Source: Halobaculum marinum (GTDB lineage: Archaea; Halobacteriota; Halobacteria; Halobacteriales; Haloferacaceae). Taken from it: a DNA stretch of 64,000 bases. Location: positions 2,232,001-2,296,000 of the forward strand of contig NZ_CP119989.1 of NCBI RefSeq assembly GCF_029338555.1. Reading direction: 5' to 3'. The translations under genes and the position numbers were made by a program. The notes beneath the pieces were generated by a model. That model worked only from the letters and a program-made list of their open reading frames with translations. It had not been told where the DNA came from and did not search any database. This document shows positions 2,707 through 11,256 of this stretch, piece after piece; within the stretch, counting starts at the first letter, position 1; each line of letters starts with the position of its first letter.

Positions 2707-3288
2707 CTACCTGAGCTTCTCGGCGAGTATCGCTGGAAGGCGAGGGGCAACCAGCCGCGGGTGGCGTCGCAGCAGCATTGCGAGCCACCGGAGGTTGTCT
2801 AGGAGGCTGTAGTGGTCCTCGTCGTTGTCTCGGTGTTCGAACTCGTGGTCGATGCCAACGACGGTGTAGCCCGCCTCGAACGCGCTCATCAGGAAGTCTG
2901 TGTCACCGCCGTGTGAGCAGGGAACCGGGAATCCACCCGTGTCCTGCCACGCCTCCTTCCGGAAGCCCATCACGCGGCCCATCCCCGGCGTGAACCCCTC
3001 GGGCCACGACACCTGCGGCAGAATACCGGTGCCCCTGACGGTGACGACGGTTCGCGGTTCTGCCGCGACCCGATCGACCACGCGGTCGAACCACGCCGTC
3101 TCGAAGATGAGGTCGTCGTCGAGGATCAACACAACGTCGTGGCTCGCGTTTGCCACGCCCGCGTTCCGGGCGCGGTTGAGTCCTTCATCACGGCGAACTT
3201 GCACTTCCACGTCGGGACGGTCGGGAATCGAGTCTGTCGTCAACACCCGTTCTCGGTTCGACGGGATGACGACGCTGACGGCAGTCAT
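2707..3288 (-). CDS. Family 2 glycosyltransferase
   Basis: A 193-residue GT-A fold glycosyltransferase. It opens with AVSVVIPSNRE, has the nucleotide-binding block RDEGLNRARNAG (33-44), the metal-binding acidic cluster LILDDD (54-59), and GGDTDF (127-132) where GT2 enzymes place their catalytic acid. It is short for the family (usually 230-330 residues) and has no C-terminal membrane helices, so it should be cytoplasmic or peripheral. Its ATG overlaps the stop of the preceding AlkP-like gene (ATGA at 3285-3288), making it the last gene of a three-gene minus-strand unit. The likely role is adding one sugar to a lipid-linked glycan; donor and acceptor cannot be read from the sequence. Confidence 0.82.
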   Translation of the reverse strand: MTAVSVVIPSNRERVLTTDSIPDRPDVEVQVRRDEGLNRARNAGVANASHDVVLILDDDLIFETAWFDRVVDRVAAEPRTVVTVRGTGILPQVSWPEGFTPGMGRVMGFRKEAWQDTGGFPVPCSHGGDTDFLMSAFEAGYTVVGIDHEFEHRDNDEDHYSLLDNLRWLAMLLRRHPRLVAPRLPAILAEKLR

Positions 3289-4655
3289 TCCAGATACCCG
3301 AGGTCTTTCATGTGCTGCTCGACCTGCAGGCTGTCGGGATCTATCGCCTTCGTGTCTGCTGCGAGTTCGGAGCAGGTCGCTAGTTGCTCCTGTACGAACG
3401 CGTCCAGTTCCTCGTGGCGTTCGTCACCGTCCACGATGCGCTCGTCGCCGTCTCCATACTCGGTGTTCAGGTAGGTGTCCTCGCCGACGGCCTCGGTGTT
3501 GAAGCGCTTGGCGACCTGGCCGCGTGCGCCGTGGAAGTCAAGGGTGCCGTCGTAGAACACTGGCTCCGTCTCCACCGGATCGTCGAGGAGCGACCGCCCC
3601 ATCAGAAGGTCCTCTGCAGGGGAGTCGATGCCACATAGATCCAGCAGGGTCGGCACCAAGTCGACGAGCGAGACCTGCCCGTCTCGCTCGCCAGATTCGA
3701 CGGGACCGTCTAAGATGAGCGGGACTCGGGTACACTCCTCGCAGAAGAAGTTGCCGTGGCCGAACTCCCCCCACGTCTCGTAGTCGTCGATGATCTCGCC
3801 GTGGTCACTCGTGATGACGAGGATATCGTCCTCGGTCAGCCAGCCCTCCGGCACGAGGTAGTCCTCGACGAACGACTCGATCTGCGTGTCTAGATACTCG
3901 CACTCGGCGTCGTAGAGGCGACCTGCGTCCCGGATCTCGGCGTCCGTACATCCCTCGCCGTCCTGCTTGCAAACTCGCCTAGTGACATTGTTCGCCTCGC
4001 TTCGATTGGACACCGTCTCGAGGTCGTCTGGCATCCAGTCGGCGGGCGGTTCGTACGGGTGGTGGGAGTCCATATAGTGGAGCCACAGGTGGACGGAATC
4101 GGAGTCTGGGTCGCGCTCTTCGAGCCACGACTGGGCCCGTCCGTTCAGGTCGGCCGCCGTGCTGTAATAGTGCGACTCGGTGAGTGCATTTTTGACGCGC
4201 TGCCAGATCTGCATGTATCCGAACTCCAACAGTGCGAATAGCCGGCTCGACTCGTCGACGTACTCCCGAACCTTGTCCCGGAGGCCGGCCTCGTAGCCGG
4301 AGCCGGTCGCGTACCCGCGGTCGTAGTTGTAATCGGGGCCGACGAACTTGTTGTCCGACCAGACGCCGCACTCGTAGCCCACCTCGGAGAGTTCCTCGGC
4401 GAGCGTCGTCACGCCACCCTCGGTGGGGATGCCGATGCCGTCGATACTACTCGGGTAGCGTGACGCCATCATCGAGGGGAACGACCCGGGAGTGAAGCCG
4501 GCGTTCGAAACTGCGTTCGAAAAGTGGAGTCCCTCGTCGGCCCGGCGCGTGAGGTACGGCATCACCTCCGGGTCAGTCGCCCTGTCGTAGCGGAGGCTGT
4601 CGCCCGAAATGATGATGACATTCCTGTCAGTCGTACCGGTTCCCGGGTCGCTCAT
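3285..4655 (-). CDS. Sulfatase-like AlkP-superfamily enzyme (Thr at the nucleophile position)
   Basis: A 456-residue protein. The start at 4655 is chosen because translation upstream turns into an Arg-rich non-coding pattern and because it lies 26 bp after the GT4 stop. Superfamily marks are IIISGDSLRYD (metal Asp19), GFTPGSFPSMMASRYPS (53-69), YMDSHHPYEPP (194-204), ITSDHGE (281-287) and FGHGN (299-303). True sulfatases have C/S-x-P-S-R to form formylglycine; here the equivalent place reads T-P-G-S, so I infer that Thr55 is the nucleophile, as in phosphoethanolamine or glycerophosphate transferases. There is no signal peptide or membrane helix, which implies a cytoplasmic site unless it is exported by a partner. 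Flanking glycosyltransferases suggest that it modifies or trims a glycan substituent. Confidence 0.8.
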   Translation of the reverse strand: MSDPGTGTTDRNVIIISGDSLRYDRATDPEVMPYLTRRADEGLHFSNAVSNAGFTPGSFPSMMASRYPSSIDGIGIPTEGGVTTLAEELSEVGYECGVWSDNKFVGPDYNYDRGYATGSGYEAGLRDKVREYVDESSRLFALLEFGYMQIWQRVKNALTESHYYSTAADLNGRAQSWLEERDPDSDSVHLWLHYMDSHHPYEPPADWMPDDLETVSNRSEANNVTRRVCKQDGEGCTDAEIRDAGRLYDAECEYLDTQIESFVEDYLVPEGWLTEDDILVITSDHGEIIDDYETWGEFGHGNFFCEECTRVPLILDGPVESGERDGQVSLVDLVPTLLDLCGIDSPAEDLLMGRSLLDDPVETEPVFYDGTLDFHGARGQVAKRFNTEAVGEDTYLNTEYGDGDERIVDGDERHEELDAFVQEQLATCSELAADTKAIDPDSLQVEQHMKDLGYLE

Positions 4656-4681
4656 CGGAGCGGAATATACCAGAAACCGGT

Positions 4682-5764
4682 TTAAATGGTTCGTTCCTCG
4701 CGGAGCGCCTCCCGGACCTCCGTCGCGAATCGATCTGCGCCGTAGCGCTGACGGGCGCTCGCCGCTATCGAGTTGGGGTCGAACGCGCCCGGGTCGAACT
4801 GTTTGATCGCCTCGGCGACGGCGTCGACGGTTGGCTCGACCCGATGTCCGTTCTCCGCATCGACCATGTACTTCGGGTTCGGCTCGTCTGTGACGACGAG
4901 CGGCGTTCCATAGCAGAGACACTCCGCGATGGCCATCCCGAAGTCTTCCTCGACGGGGATGAACACGCCGCCCTTCGCTTTCCGCATCGTCTCGACGACC
5001 GCTTCCTCGGGGACGAATCCGCGGAACTCGACGTTCGCACCCGTCTCCTCTGTGAGTTCTGTGAGCTCCTTCCTGAGCGGCCCGTCGCCACAGAGCACGA
5101 GGCGTTCGTCCGTCCGGGCGAACGCGCGGATGAGCGTCTCGAGGCGCTTTCGCTCACCAAGCCGGCCGGCGGAGAGGAAGTAGTCCTCACGGTGCTCGGT
5201 GTCGAGGACCGGCCGGTCGTCGTACTCGATTGGCGGGTTCACCACCGTCGCGTCCAGTCCGTAGTGGCGGTCGATGCGCTCTCTGGTCGTTCGGCTGTTG
5301 GCGAGTATCTTCCGGACCCGCTGCATCTCTATCCAGTCGGCGTACATGGCGGGTTTCCGGATGAGATAGCGGAAGTTCCCGAGTCCGGTGAGTTTGTCCC
5401 GCCCCAACCACTCCGTGTAGCGAAGCGGTGGATGGTGGGTGTAATGGTGGTGGAGCTGACGCGACTCTGGTTGGTAGAACTTCGCCGGAACACCCGTCGT
5501 GACAACCGTGTCGTACTCCGGGAGGTGGAGACGGCCTGTCTCGTAGGCCACCATCGCGTCCCTGAGCATCGTCGGGAGTGAGTTCGCCCTCTCGGCGTAA
5601 AGCGTCACCTCCCGCTCGACGCGCTCCTCGTACCACGCCGGTTTTCCGGCCCGGCCGGCGTAGAGGTCAGCGTCTAACGCCGCGGCGAGGGCAGTCGCCA
5701 CCTTCGCGGCACCCCCGGGAGTGTCCGCGAAGCCGTCGTGGACGATTGCGACGCGCTCGTTCAT
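4682..5764 (-). CDS. Family 4 (GT-B) glycosyltransferase
   Basis: A 360-residue GT-B glycosyltransferase. The N-terminal half has the glycine-rich loop FADTPGGAAKVA (12-23) used by GT4 enzymes; the C-terminal half carries the E-x7-E signature in EDFGMAIAECLCYGTPLV that binds the nucleotide sugar, preceded by a typical SAGRLGERKRLETLI block. The start at 5764 is preferred over the longer frame (5812) because it has a good Shine-Dalgarno GGAGG 7 nt upstream and because its ATG overlaps the stop of a 29-codon leaderless ORF. It is the first gene of the GT4-AlkP-GT2 unit and should transfer a sugar, with retention of configuration, to a lipid-linked glycan on the inner membrane face. Confidence 0.85.
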   Translation of the reverse strand: MNERVAIVHDGFADTPGGAAKVATALAAALDADLYAGRAGKPAWYEERVEREVTLYAERANSLPTMLRDAMVAYETGRLHLPEYDTVVTTGVPAKFYQPESRQLHHHYTHHPPLRYTEWLGRDKLTGLGNFRYLIRKPAMYADWIEMQRVRKILANSRTTRERIDRHYGLDATVVNPPIEYDDRPVLDTEHREDYFLSAGRLGERKRLETLIRAFARTDERLVLCGDGPLRKELTELTEETGANVEFRGFVPEEAVVETMRKAKGGVFIPVEEDFGMAIAECLCYGTPLVVTDEPNPKYMVDAENGHRVEPTVDAVAEAIKQFDPGAFDPNSIAASARQRYGADRFATEVREALREERTI

Positions 5765-5850
5765 TCGTCCGCCTCCCGGGACCGTCCGTCGAACTCCCAC
5801 CTTCCGCCCCACCGGCGCACGCGACGGTCGAGGCTGTGTCCATCGATCAT
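5761..5850 (-). CDS. Short leaderless ORF (29 aa) coupled to the GT4 gene
   Basis: ATG at 5850 opens a 29-codon frame (begins MIDGHSLDRR) that ends in TGA inside the ATGA start of the glycosyltransferase. A TATA-like TTATTTG is centred 27 bp upstream of its ATG, so a leaderless transcript would begin exactly at this codon. The GGAGG used by the GT4 start lies inside this ORF. The peptide is rich in Arg, Trp and Asp and has no recognisable family. I read it as a translated leader or a tiny protein; it may also be chance coding in a short 5' region. Confidence 0.4.
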   Translation of the reverse strand: MIDGHSLDRRVRRWGGRWEFDGRSREADE

Positions 5851-6360: not shown

Positions 6361-9300
6361 ATGAGTCGAAGCGATAGCGACACGACCCCCGGCGGTGGGA
6401 ATCCCGCATCCACCGTTCAGGGGCTTGATTACTTCGAGGAGAAGTCGGTTACCGACGTCCTCCGGGACTTCTATCACGTCCCGGTGCTCCTCGCGGTCGT
6501 TGCGTTCATGCTGTGGGTCCGCCTCCAGTCCTACGGCAACTTCATCCGCGACGGCCAGGTGTACTTCTCCGGGAACGACGCGTGGTACCACCTCCGACAG
6601 GTTCGCTACACCGTGGCGAACTGGCCGTCGACGATGCCGTTCGACCCGTGGACGTACTACCCGTTCGGCACGGCTCAGGGGCAGTTCGGCACCCTCTACG
6701 ATCAACTCGTCGCCACGGCTGCCCTCGTTGTCGGTCTCGGCTCTCCCTCTGAGGCGCTTGTCGCGAAGACGCTTCTCGTCGCCCCCGCTGTCTTCGGCGC
6801 GCTGGTCGCGGTCCCCACCTACCTCATCGGTAAACGTCTCGGCGGGCGACTCGCCGGTCTCTTCAGTGCGGTCATCCTGATGCTCCTCCCCGGGACGTTC
6901 CTCCGCCGGGGCCTCGTTGGCTTCAGCGATCACAACATTGCCGAACCGTTCTTCCAGGCATTCGCCGTCGTCGCGCTGATGATCGCGCTCGCGGTCGCCC
7001 AGCGTGACCGCCCCATCTGGGAACTCGTTCAGGCGCGCGAGTGGAAAGAACTGAAACCAACTATGGTGTGGAGTACGGTCGCTGGGATCGCGGTTGGTCT
7101 GTACATCTGGACGTGGCCCCCAGGCGTCTTCCTGCTCGGACTATTCGCCGCCTACGTCGCATTCCAGTCGGTCTCGGATTACGCGGGCAACCGCTCTCCC
7201 GACCACGTCGCGTTCGTCGCGGTCGTCTCGATGACCGTGGCCGCACTGATGGCGTTGGTTCGCTTCCAGGTACCGTCGTTCAGCCCCGCGCAGTTCAGCC
7301 TCATCCAACCCCTATTCGCACTCGCGACGGCCGCAGGCGCGGCGTTCCTCGCGGTGCTGGCTCGACAGGTCGAGGCGCGCGGCTTCGCCGACGACCGCCT
7401 GAGCGAGTACGGCTTCGCGGGGATCGTGGGCCTCCTCGGGGCGGTCGGTATCTCCCTCATCATCTTCGTCGAGGCGACACCGTTCACGACGGTCGAGAAC
7501 AACCTCCTCCGCTTCGTAGGCTTCTCCGCGGGTGCGGCGACGCGCACCATCGGCGAGGCTCAGCCGTTCCTCCAGTCAGGTCTCGTCCAGTATTACGGCG
7601 GCTTCGGTGTCGTCATCGCGGAGTACGGCTTCGCATTCATTACGGCGTTGGCCGCTGCGGTGTGGCTCCTCGTCAAACCCCTCTGGAAGCGCGGTACCAC
7701 GGGTGACTACTACTACCTCGCGGGCGCGACCGTGGTCGTTCTGTTCATCTTCGTCGGGAAGGCGCTGTTCAACCCCCTCGCGGCGTCGCTCGGGTTCAAT
7801 CCCCAGGTGCTCGGCCTCGGTATCGTCGCGCTCCTCGTGTTCGGCGCCGCCGCCCGGGTGCGCTACGACGCCGAACACCTGTTCGTGTTCGTGTGGGCGG
7901 CGTTCATCACGGCCGCCGCGTTCACCCAGATTCGGTTCAACTACTACCTCGCGGTGGTCGTCGCCGGACTGAACGCGTACTTCCTCCGGGAGGTCCTCAG
8001 GGTCGTTGGGACGGACCTCGTATCCGATCTCTCGCTCGACGGGATCACCTGGCACCGCGTTCTCACTGTTGCCGCGGTGATCATGGTCGTCCTCGGTCCC
8101 GTGCTCGTCGTTCCGCTGTCGCTCGGCAACACCGGCTCGGTGTCCATCGACCGGACGAACAACGCCATCGGCGTCGGCAACAGCACGTCACCCGGCGAGG
8201 TCGTCTACTGGAACGAGAACCTCGAGTGGATGGCCGACAACACGCCCGCCGAGGGGAACCTCGGGGGCGCCGGCAACGGTGACTCGCTGGAGTACTACGG
8301 CACGTACCAGCGGCCCGCGGACGACGACTTCGACTACGAAGACGGCACCTACGGCGTGATGTCGTGGTGGGACTACGGCCACTTCATCACCACGCAAGGC
8401 GAGCGCATCCCGCACGCGAACCCGTTCCAGCAGGGTGCGACCTCGGCTGCGAACTACCTGCTCGCCCCAAGTGAAGACGACGCAGACGCCGTGCTCGCCG
8501 GTATCGACGACGACGGCGAGGCCGAGGACATGCGCTACGTCATGGTCAACTGGGAGATGGTGACCGTCGGCTCCGAGTTCGGCGCGCCGGTCGTCTTCGA
8601 CGACGACACGCAGGCGTCGGACTACTACTCGCCGACGCTCGCGGTCAACTCCGAGGGACAGCCCATCGGGCAGGTGGCGTTCTACTCGAAGGAGCAGCGC
8701 TACTACGAGAGCCTGATGGTGCGCCTGTACAAGTACCACGGGAGCCGAGCCGAGCCGAGCGTCAACACCCTGTTCGGCGAACGGGTCATCGTGTTCGACT
8801 ACGACACCGTCACCACCCGGGACGGCTCCACGACGTACAAGGTGATGCCCAGCGGCGAGAACGCGTCGGCCATCCGGACGTTCGGGAACATGAGTGCGGC
8901 ACAGCAGTTCGTCGAAGAGGACGGCACTGCCCAGATCGGTGGCGTCGGTGACTATCCGCGGGAGCCGGTGCCCGCACTCGAGCACTACCGCCTGGTGAGC
9001 ACCTCCGAGACGTCGTCGTACGTTTCGGGGTCGTACCAACGGAACGTGCTCCGCGAGTCGCGGTCGCTCGGGCTCCGTCCCTCGCTGCTCCAGCAGACCC
9101 AGCCGCAGTGGGTGAAGACGTTCGAGAAGGTGCCGGGCGCGACCATCGAAGGCTCGGGCGCCGAACCCGGTGAGACCGTGACGGCGAGCGTGCAGATGCA
9201 GGTGCCGTACGGTGGCACCGGCGGCAACGCCTCGACGTTCACCTACACGCAGGAGACGACCGCCGAGGACGACGGCACGTTCACGCTCACCGTCCCGTAC

Positions 9301-9714
9301 TCGACCACCGACTACGACGAGTACGGGCCCGAGAACGGCTACACCAACGTCAGCGTGCGGTCGGTCTCCGGCTACACCATCTCTGGCGAGGTTCGCTCGA
9401 ACGAGTCGGCGTACGTCGTCCGCAACCAGGGGACCGTCAACGTGAGCGAGGGGCTCGTCAACGGCGACCAAGACGGCGCGGCGACCGTGACGCTCTCCGA
9501 AGAGGTGCTCCAGGAGCCGGAGGGCGCACAGAACGGGTCGGAGACGAACACCTCCGAGAACAGCAGTTCGCTCGCCGGCGGACTCGACGCCCTCGACGGG
9601 TTCGACCAGACCGGACACCAGCCGAGCGGCGACGTGACTGTCGTCGCCGGCGACACGGGCGACGCGGTGGCACCGTCGATTCGAGCGCCCACCACAACGA
9701 TCACGGTTCCGTAG
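6361..9714 (+). CDS. aglB: Oligosaccharyltransferase AglB (STT3 family)
   Basis: A 1117-residue membrane enzyme that moves a glycan from a dolichyl phosphate carrier to Asn in N-x-S/T sequons of exported proteins, on the outer face of the membrane. Residues about 35-595 form the multi-helix membrane domain, with SGNDAWYHLR near residue 70 and SDHNIAEPFFQ near 188 as the conserved external-loop motifs. The STT3 signature WWDYG is at 669-673 at the start of the large soluble domain. The C-terminal 250 residues are beta-rich and Thr/Ser/Asn-rich, itself with several N-x-S/T sites. It ends in TAG directly against the ATG of the DUF368 gene, so the two are cotranscribed. Promoter spacing points to a leaderless message. 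Confidence 0.97.
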   Translation: MSRSDSDTTPGGGNPASTVQGLDYFEEKSVTDVLRDFYHVPVLLAVVAFMLWVRLQSYGNFIRDGQVYFSGNDAWYHLRQVRYTVANWPSTMPFDPWTYYPFGTAQGQFGTLYDQLVATAALVVGLGSPSEALVAKTLLVAPAVFGALVAVPTYLIGKRLGGRLAGLFSAVILMLLPGTFLRRGLVGFSDHNIAEPFFQAFAVVALMIALAVAQRDRPIWELVQAREWKELKPTMVWSTVAGIAVGLYIWTWPPGVFLLGLFAAYVAFQSVSDYAGNRSPDHVAFVAVVSMTVAALMALVRFQVPSFSPAQFSLIQPLFALATAAGAAFLAVLARQVEARGFADDRLSEYGFAGIVGLLGAVGISLIIFVEATPFTTVENNLLRFVGFSAGAATRTIGEAQPFLQSGLVQYYGGFGVVIAEYGFAFITALAAAVWLLVKPLWKRGTTGDYYYLAGATVVVLFIFVGKALFNPLAASLGFNPQVLGLGIVALLVFGAAARVRYDAEHLFVFVWAAFITAAAFTQIRFNYYLAVVVAGLNAYFLREVLRVVGTDLVSDLSLDGITWHRVLTVAAVIMVVLGPVLVVPLSLGNTGSVSIDRTNNAIGVGNSTSPGEVVYWNENLEWMADNTPAEGNLGGAGNGDSLEYYGTYQRPADDDFDYEDGTYGVMSWWDYGHFITTQGERIPHANPFQQGATSAANYLLAPSEDDADAVLAGIDDDGEAEDMRYVMVNWEMVTVGSEFGAPVVFDDDTQASDYYSPTLAVNSEGQPIGQVAFYSKEQRYYESLMVRLYKYHGSRAEPSVNTLFGERVIVFDYDTVTTRDGSTTYKVMPSGENASAIRTFGNMSAAQQFVEEDGTAQIGGVGDYPREPVPALEHYRLVSTSETSSYVSGSYQRNVLRESRSLGLRPSLLQQTQPQWVKTFEKVPGATIEGSGAEPGETVTASVQMQVPYGGTGGNASTFTYTQETTAEDDGTFTLTVPYSTTDYDEYGPENGYTNVSVRSVSGYTISGEVRSNESAYVVRNQGTVNVSEGLVNGDQDGAATVTLSEEVLQEPEGAQNGSETNTSENSSSLAGGLDALDGFDQTGHQPSGDVTVVAGDTGDAVAPSIRAPTTTITVP

Positions 9715-10722
9715 ATGACTGACGGGGAGGCCGACACGACTAGTCGGCTTGGGGGGGAACCCGTAGAGGAGGCGAGCGCCGTGGGTGACGACGACGACGT
9801 CGGCGCGCTCGGGGCGTACCTCCGCGGCGTCGCGATGGGGGCCGCCGACGCCGTCCCAGGCGTCTCCGGTGGGACCATCGCGTTGATCACCGGCATCTAC
9901 GACCGGCTGATAGCCGCGTTCACGTCCGCCTCGCCCGCGCTCGTCCGGCGGGTCCTCGCGGACCTCGTTCGCGACCGCGGCGACCTCCGGACGGTGTTCC
10001 GCGAGGTCGACGGCGCGTTCCTGCTCGCGCTCGGTGCTGGGATCGCGACCGCGATCCTCACCGTGACGCGCGCGCTCGACACCGCGTTGGAGACGATGCC
10101 GGTACTCACGTACGGCTTCTTCTTCGGCCTTATCGCGGCCTCCGCCGTCGTGCTGCGTGACGAGGTGTCCCTCGACACGCTCGGGCGCGCCGCCGCCGGG
10201 GTGACCGGCGTCGTCGTCGCGTTCGTCGCCTCCGGGAGCGCGAGCGCCGCCCTCGGCGAGTCACTCGCAGCGACGTTCCTGGCTGGCGCGGTCGCGGTGA
10301 GCGCGATGATCCTCCCGGGCATCTCCGGGTCGCTCCTGTTGGTCATCCTCGGCCAGTACGAGCGGATGACGGGGGCGCTGTCGGCGTTCGTCGACGCGCT
10401 GCTCGCGCTGGTCACCGGCGGGTCGGTCGCCACGGTCGTCGACACCGCCGGACCGGTCGTCGCGTTCCTTGCCGGCGGTGTCGTCGGCCTCCTGACGGTC
10501 GCGCACGCGATCCGGGCCGCGTTGGAGGCCCGGCGAGCCGCGACGCTCGCGTTCCTCGTCGGCCTCATCGTCGGGGCCCTGCGCGCGCCCGTCGCCCGCG
10601 TCACCGAGGAGGTCGGCGCGTGGACCGGCGGCGTGCTCGCGGAGTTCGCCGTCGCCGCCGTCGTCGGTGCCTTACTCGTCGCCGGCGTCGAGCGAGCGGC
10701 TGGCGGTATCGACCTCGACTGA
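9715..10722 (+). CDS. DUF368 (PopT-type) polyprenyl-phosphate transporter
   Basis: A 335-residue membrane protein with an acidic N-terminal tail (1-34) and two inverted-repeat signatures: GAADAVPGVSGGTIALITG (42-60) and SAMILPGISGSLLLVILG (around residue 195-212). These are the DUF368 marks; bacterial members (PopT) return undecaprenyl phosphate across the membrane. There is no gap at all after the aglB stop codon, which implies translational coupling. I infer that this archaeal member recycles dolichyl phosphate released by AglB; direct evidence for archaeal members is not visible here. About eight to ten helices. No promoter of its own is seen. Confidence 0.88.
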   Translation: MTDGEADTTSRLGGEPVEEASAVGDDDDVGALGAYLRGVAMGAADAVPGVSGGTIALITGIYDRLIAAFTSASPALVRRVLADLVRDRGDLRTVFREVDGAFLLALGAGIATAILTVTRALDTALETMPVLTYGFFFGLIAASAVVLRDEVSLDTLGRAAAGVTGVVVAFVASGSASAALGESLAATFLAGAVAVSAMILPGISGSLLLVILGQYERMTGALSAFVDALLALVTGGSVATVVDTAGPVVAFLAGGVVGLLTVAHAIRAALEARRAATLAFLVGLIVGALRAPVARVTEEVGAWTGGVLAEFAVAAVVGALLVAGVERAAGGIDLD

Positions 10723-10809: not shown

Positions 10810-11256
10810 ATGAGTGACGAGGCCGCCGACCCCGCGGTTCGGACCGTGACGATCCGCGCGGAGGGACACGAGAACGTCAGCGCCGAACACGGGAGCACGT
10901 TCGAGGTGACCAGCGACGACTGGCTCACGCCCGCTGGGGACTGCATCCTCGCGGTCGAGGCCGACACGACGCCCGCGGACGTGCCGCGCTCGTTCGTCGA
11001 GGCGTGTCGCTCCACCGAGGCGACCATCGAGGCCGAGTTCGCCGCCGCCGACGCGACGGAGACGGTGACGGGTCGCGGCCACCCCGACCTCACGTACGAG
11101 GGCGACCGGAGCATGGTGGGCCGCACGAGCGACTACGTCGACGAGCGGACGATCATGGTCGGCGCCGACAAGGCCGCCGGCGAGTTCGACCGCCGACTCG
11201 TGACGGCGCTGGAGCGCGGCGCGCCGCTGACGGTGACGCTCCGAGTCGACCCGTAG
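10810..11256 (+). CDS. DUF371 family protein
   Basis: A 148-residue soluble acidic protein of the archaeal DUF371 family, recognised by the order HENVSAEHGSTFEVT (near residues 18-32), LTPAGDCILAVEAD (42-55) and a C-terminal VGADKAAGEFDRRLV stretch. The biochemical function of the family is unknown. The start at 10810 rather than 10783 is preferred because it fits the family N-terminus and the TATA spacing. It follows the DUF368 gene by 87 bp and is probably separately transcribed; the link to glycosylation is only positional. Confidence 0.78.
   Translation: MSDEAADPAVRTVTIRAEGHENVSAEHGSTFEVTSDDWLTPAGDCILAVEADTTPADVPRSFVEACRSTEATIEAEFAAADATETVTGRGHPDLTYEGDRSMVGRTSDYVDERTIMVGADKAAGEFDRRLVTALERGAPLTVTLRVDP

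Follow-up and report, generated by a model that had tools for sequence, protein, structure and literature searches.

Results

The window analyzed here, a stretch of 64,000 nucleotides from Halobaculum marinum, carries on its plus strand the gene aglB, which encodes the archaeal oligosaccharyltransferase (STT3 family, archaeosortase-A-associated subfamily) and spans positions 6361 to 9714 (ATG to TAG, 1,117 residues). Its product matches TIGR04154 with 868.7 bits, against a cut-off of 450, over positions 1 to 830 of the 831 in the profile, and Pfam places in it the STT3 domain (PF02516), the AglB core (PF22627) and AglB_L1 (PF18079). The next gene on the same strand, at positions 9715 to 10722 (ATG to TGA, 335 residues), is a popT-like member of the DUF368 family (VCA0040-like), scoring 213.8 bits against PF04018 (gathering cut-off 26) over positions 1 to 228 of 246; the current name of this Pfam entry is "undecaprenyl phosphate translocase-like". 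Each of the two genes has a single match in the 3.5-Mb genome. The original prediction, that the TAG of aglB at 9712 to 9714 is followed by the DUF368 start at 9715, proved exact, the stop and start forming one TAG-ATG junction (9712 to 9717, plus strand) with zero intergenic bases, and both family assignments were confirmed by the profile matches above. A junction this tight leaves no space for a promoter of its own in front of DUF368, so the two genes are likely to share one transcript, and the junction makes translational coupling possible. A start at 9715 gives the DUF368 protein an N-terminal tail of about 26 to 34 residues, of low confidence; this start is supported by a locus in a sister genus (L078), where an ATG likewise follows aglB with zero gap and yields a comparable tail.

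Upstream of aglB lies a surface-glycan cluster. It comprises a MOP/Wzx-type polysaccharide flippase on the plus strand (1249 to 2703; PF13440/PF01943, with a weak NCBIfam MOP flippase match), a candidate for the outward flippase of the N-glycosylation cycle, and three agl-cluster genes on the minus strand, encoding a short family-2 glycosyltransferase (GT2; 2707 to 3288, PF00535), a sulfatase-fold protein (3285 to 4922, PF00884) and a GT4 glycosyltransferase (4682 to 5812, PF00534). In Hbt. salinarum, the alkaline-phosphatase-like proteins VNG1056C and VNG1057C of the aglB cluster sulfate the N-glycan (PMC11980604), and by analogy the sulfatase-fold protein may be involved in N-glycan sulfation. 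Downstream of the DUF368 gene, a DUF371 gene (10810 to 11256, plus strand) recurs in just a few of the loci under comparison, and the genes that come after it have no evident link to the pair.

We aligned 47 DUF368 proteins from haloarchaea, other archaea and bacteria. The first signature motif is nearly invariant among them and corresponds to residues 41 to 54 of the window protein (MGAADAVPGVSGGT; 9835 to 9876, plus strand). The second, MILPGISG (residues 198 to 205; 10306 to 10329, plus strand), includes M198, L200, P201, G202, S204 and G205, which are invariant in all 47 sequences, and resembles the first as an internal repeat. Both halves of the paired family signature, MG.AD..PG.SGGT and M.LPG.SGS, are therefore present in the window protein. 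The AlphaFold2 model is confident (mean pLDDT of 89.2) and all-helical, with both motifs sitting at helix breaks. None of the positively charged residues is conserved throughout the family (the closest, position 37, has K or R in 89% of sequences), and hence no phosphate-binding residue can be named.

A sequence search returned no solved DUF368 structure, Foldseek gave no match to the model at an E value of ≤0.001, and the viral structure library had none. The best VIA-align hit (Z score of 10.2, rmsd of 4.0, 162 residues) was to a ZIP transporter; the ZIP and MFS matches both covered part of the model only, and BacA appeared in Foldseek with values that carry no meaning (E value of 2.1, TM score of 0.25 to 0.30), so that these searches gave no confident fold relative. 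Against the NCBIfam PopT equivalogs NF052564 and NF052563, the protein scored 190.6 and 84.3 bits, below the cut-off of 400, and it is therefore filed only as a PF04018 protein, although it probably works like the PopT proteins that these models describe.

Across the class, in a sample of 391 haloarchaeal genomes, PF04018 was matched in 386, usually by one copy, and AglB in 387. The gene order was surveyed by listing the matches to both families in a single haloarchaeal genome for each of 80 genera, from 10 families. In most genera (52 of 80), DUF368 immediately follows aglB in the same orientation, its domain starting 137 to 716 nucleotides past the end of the AglB domain. The two genes are within 3 kb of each other in 57 genera, and in all of these DUF368 comes after aglB and is read in the same direction; the link is found in 9 of the 10 families and is absent in 23 genera. 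Adjacency across genera had been set beforehand as a check on the original prediction, and these counts pass that check strongly. The pair occurs, for instance, in Haloferax mucosum, Haloferax sp. Q22, two Halorubrum genomes, Halolamina salifodinae, Haladaptatus salinisoli, Halostagnicola sp., Haloglomus irregulare and Halorhabdus amylolytica. At 32 of the 57 junctions, a candidate ATG or GTG start, the first available and not necessarily the one in use, falls at −4 to +9 nucleotides of the aglB stop, and 11 of these starts overlap it.

Under random gene order, the pair would be expected in about 0.01 of 80 genomes, as against the 52 seen, a figure that illustrates the scale and is not a P value, as the genomes are related. 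A better control is how constant the other neighbors of the linked pair are. Of these, a divergent GT2 gene upstream of aglB comes closest (20 of 57 loci), the second gene downstream is the same in at most 7, and no other gene within 7 kb is linked to aglB to a comparable degree in these loci. Five loci have 1.6 to 2.5 kb between aglB and DUF368: three of these gaps hold a UDP-glucose dehydrogenase gene, joined in one of them by a nucleotidyltransferase gene, and these are AglM- and AglF-like N-glycosylation genes, while the gaps of L046 and L065 gave no family match.

Few haloarchaeal genomes appear to lack DUF368. The one credible exception is G021 (family f5), a genome that is 98% complete and has an AglB match with no DUF368 match. 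Neither gene was matched in G187, G206 and G306, all of genus g2; the pattern resembled a natural double loss but was set aside as evidence, since the G306 contig with the expected flank is 8.6 kb long and ends before the aglB-DUF368 site, so that the absence in G306 is best read as an assembly gap.

The original prediction also called for a family tree of archaeal DUF368, and the link does follow the tree, with losses inside the class. On a tree of 82 haloarchaeal DUF368 proteins labeled as linked or unlinked, the linked state changes 5 times, compared with 21.8 in shuffles. One clade (support of 99/98), drawn from families f4, f3 and f11, holds 21 of the 25 unlinked rows, and the remaining four are scattered. 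A wider tree with bacterial and other archaeal members, built by a quick method, separates the haloarchaeal proteins from the rest by a long, fully supported branch, with the exception of L236, a very long row whose place is unreliable, and the rows beside that branch are linked ones. Given this placement and the single unlinked clade, the simplest history has the link present in the ancestor of Halobacteria and lost in one derived clade, with single losses elsewhere. Two genomes carry two copies, one behind aglB and the other elsewhere: G344 (L049 and L108) and G231 (L050 and L055). The second copy of G344 is a member of the unlinked clade, which stands alone in many relatives; where it is the sole copy, it presumably does the same job.

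Beyond the class, DUF368 is patchy and does not adjoin aglB. It was found in 44 of 148 genomes sampled phylum-wide, 21 of them outside Halobacteria, and none of 20 loci from outside the class had AglB within about 7 kb of DUF368. AglB was matched in all 25 non-haloarchaeal genomes tested (23 over the cut-off), eight of which have no DUF368. Since AglB outside Halobacteria occurs mostly without DUF368, the latter is not obligatory for archaeal N-glycosylation: it is a solution of the haloarchaea and not of archaea in general. Family f30, which lies outside Halobacteria, has three genera with the two genes 12 to 14 kb apart; we did not count these as linked, as the intervening genes are mostly housekeeping ones and include a chaperonin, TiaS, a histidine kinase and an asparagine synthase besides one GT2, which is ordinary synteny. 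Separately, in the small archaeal genome G396, the aglB match (C1:555434-557785) reads through one in-frame TAA.

Discussion

Every N-glycosylating cell must return its spent lipid carrier, and the flippases that do so in bacteria came to light as late as 2022 to 2023. Haloarchaeal N-glycans are assembled on dolichyl phosphate (Dol-P), moved outward and transferred by AglB, with AglR, Agl15 and Agl29 implicated in the outward step (PMC3871713, PMC5867893, PMC11980604). The haloarchaeal pathway papers cited here name these outward flippases but give no gene that brings the carrier back. In bacteria, undecaprenyl phosphate (C55-P) depends on DUF368 proteins to leave the outer leaflet for the inner one, especially at alkaline pH and with sodium, and the loss of DUF368 in S. 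aureus leaves more C55-P in the outer leaflet (PMC9876793). In the same study, the H. volcanii DUF368 protein expressed in V. cholerae partially rescued a Δvca0040 mutant, Halobacteria were named as enriched in DUF368, and an archaeal role was proposed (Sit et al. 2022, PMC9876793). The view that the carrier step has lacked a clear archaeal gene is thus only partly true and, given that proposal and rescue, too strong.

We consider it probable that DUF368 serves haloarchaeal N-glycosylation as the return translocase of its carrier cycle. Dol-P would be loaded with sugars on the cytoplasmic face and flipped outwards by a Wzx-type flippase; AglB would unload the glycan onto protein on the outer face, freeing Dol-P; and DUF368 would move the freed carrier back to the inner leaflet, making a small carrier pool reusable. 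A single aglB-DUF368 transcript would match the return capacity to the rate of release. The original prediction left open whether the carrier is released as phosphate or diphosphate. The phosphate, which fits PopT better, is favored, as the haloarchaeal AglB donor is mainly a dolichyl monophosphate (PMC3871713, PMC11980604). On this chemistry, AglB of the present species should release Dol-P directly, with no phosphatase step, and its product would directly be a PopT-type molecule. Together with the donor chemistry, the bacterial PopT role, the H. volcanii rescue and the conserved motifs make the return of Dol-P after use by AglB the most likely function of DUF368, and the constancy of the pairing favors AglB as the main supplier. 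We infer Dol-P as the substrate, the inward direction in archaea, the single transcript and the place of AglB as main supplier. The recycler role put forward originally is accordingly the best-supported function and came through the adjacency survey; it stays a prediction, and the link behind it is not universal. A more ambitious version, in which the aglB-linked DUF368 is a dedicated Dol-P return flippase, coupled to AglB from the origin of Halobacteria onwards, the first gene assigned to the closing step of the archaeal N-glycosylation carrier cycle and possibly a physical partner of AglB, seems to us evenly balanced.

DUF368 could instead be a general polyprenyl-phosphate recycler serving all Dol-P pathways, including Dol-P-mannose from AglD/AglS, the low-salt glycan and exopolysaccharide, its place behind aglB being a convenient inherited operon. 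This is a variant of the explanation that we prefer, and the two overlap and are hard to separate; we hold it to be possible, if clearly less likely. It is consistent with the use of Dol-P by several haloarchaeal pathways (PMC3871713; AepG) and with the many genomes whose sole DUF368 gene lies far from aglB, but the adjacency is kept in 9 of 10 families while other neighbors change, which suggests selection for pairing with AglB. Another family might also do the main work. DedA/VTT proteins, three of which exceed the cut-off in this genome (one is UptA-like, scoring 55.7 bits where the cut-off is 250), also occur in all four archaeal controls, H. volcanii among them, and might be the main Dol-P recyclers, leaving DUF368 a conditional back-up at high pH or high sodium or another role. 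The conditional action of bacterial DUF368 at alkaline pH with sodium (PMC9876793) agrees with this proposal; we nonetheless find it unlikely, as the DedA genes are not near aglB here, whereas DUF368 adjoins it.

The archaeosortase link raises the question of another substrate, such as an archaeal phospholipid precursor, whose movement would be tied to archaeosortase S-layer anchoring. TIGR04154 is indeed described as archaeosortase A system-associated, yet the known substrate of the DUF368 family is polyprenyl phosphate (PMC9876793) and its signature motifs are kept, so that we give this idea very little credence. Slighter still is the chance that the adjacency is accidental or a purely inherited order with no functional meaning. 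The genera are related, so the counts are not independent, and the linked label clusters on the tree; moreover, plain synteny does occur, as the f30 loci with their intervening housekeeping genes illustrate. Such an origin is hard to reconcile with the excess over random order, with the failure of any other gene near aglB to keep its place, and with the aglB stops and DUF368 starts that touch or overlap in many genera.

The DUF368 family is already known, and so is the proposal that its proteins, an archaeal member included, are polyprenyl-phosphate translocases. What we add is the breadth, the direction and the apparently ancestral history of a class-wide coupling to the oligosaccharyltransferase. 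Our literature search found no paper joining DUF368 and AglB; the paper that named PopT lay outside this search and may treat synteny. The abstract of that companion paper reportedly mentions syntenic analyses, and part of the linkage may already be in print. With the class-wide coupling, what was a plausible guess becomes a precise hypothesis that can be tested, in which DUF368 is a candidate for the return step that archaeal N-glycosylation has been missing. The gene is nearly universal in haloarchaea and sits behind aglB in almost every family, which allows a direct test in two species with good genetics and routine measurement of both Dol-P-bound and protein-bound glycans.

The bacterial PopT proteins VCA0040 and SAOUHSC_00846 share with the window protein the Pfam family, both signature motifs and an all-helical membrane architecture, and bacterial members align with it at mostly 33 to 42% identity. 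Their carrier is undecaprenyl phosphate, used for peptidoglycan and teichoic acid, whereas haloarchaea lack peptidoglycan and rely on dolichyl phosphate. The H. volcanii protein (HVO_RS12060) very probably belongs to the same orthologous group as the window protein; its activity was tested only in a bacterium, in a report that does not mention AglB (PMC9876793). UptA and other DedA proteins return C55-P to the inner leaflet, as proposed for DUF368, but form another Pfam family (PF09335) and are encoded elsewhere in this genome, not beside aglB. Lastly, AglR, Agl15 and Agl29 move Dol-P carriers across the same membrane for N-glycosylation, as DUF368 is proposed to do; they are assigned to the outward step with loaded carriers, whereas DUF368 would bring the empty carrier inwards.
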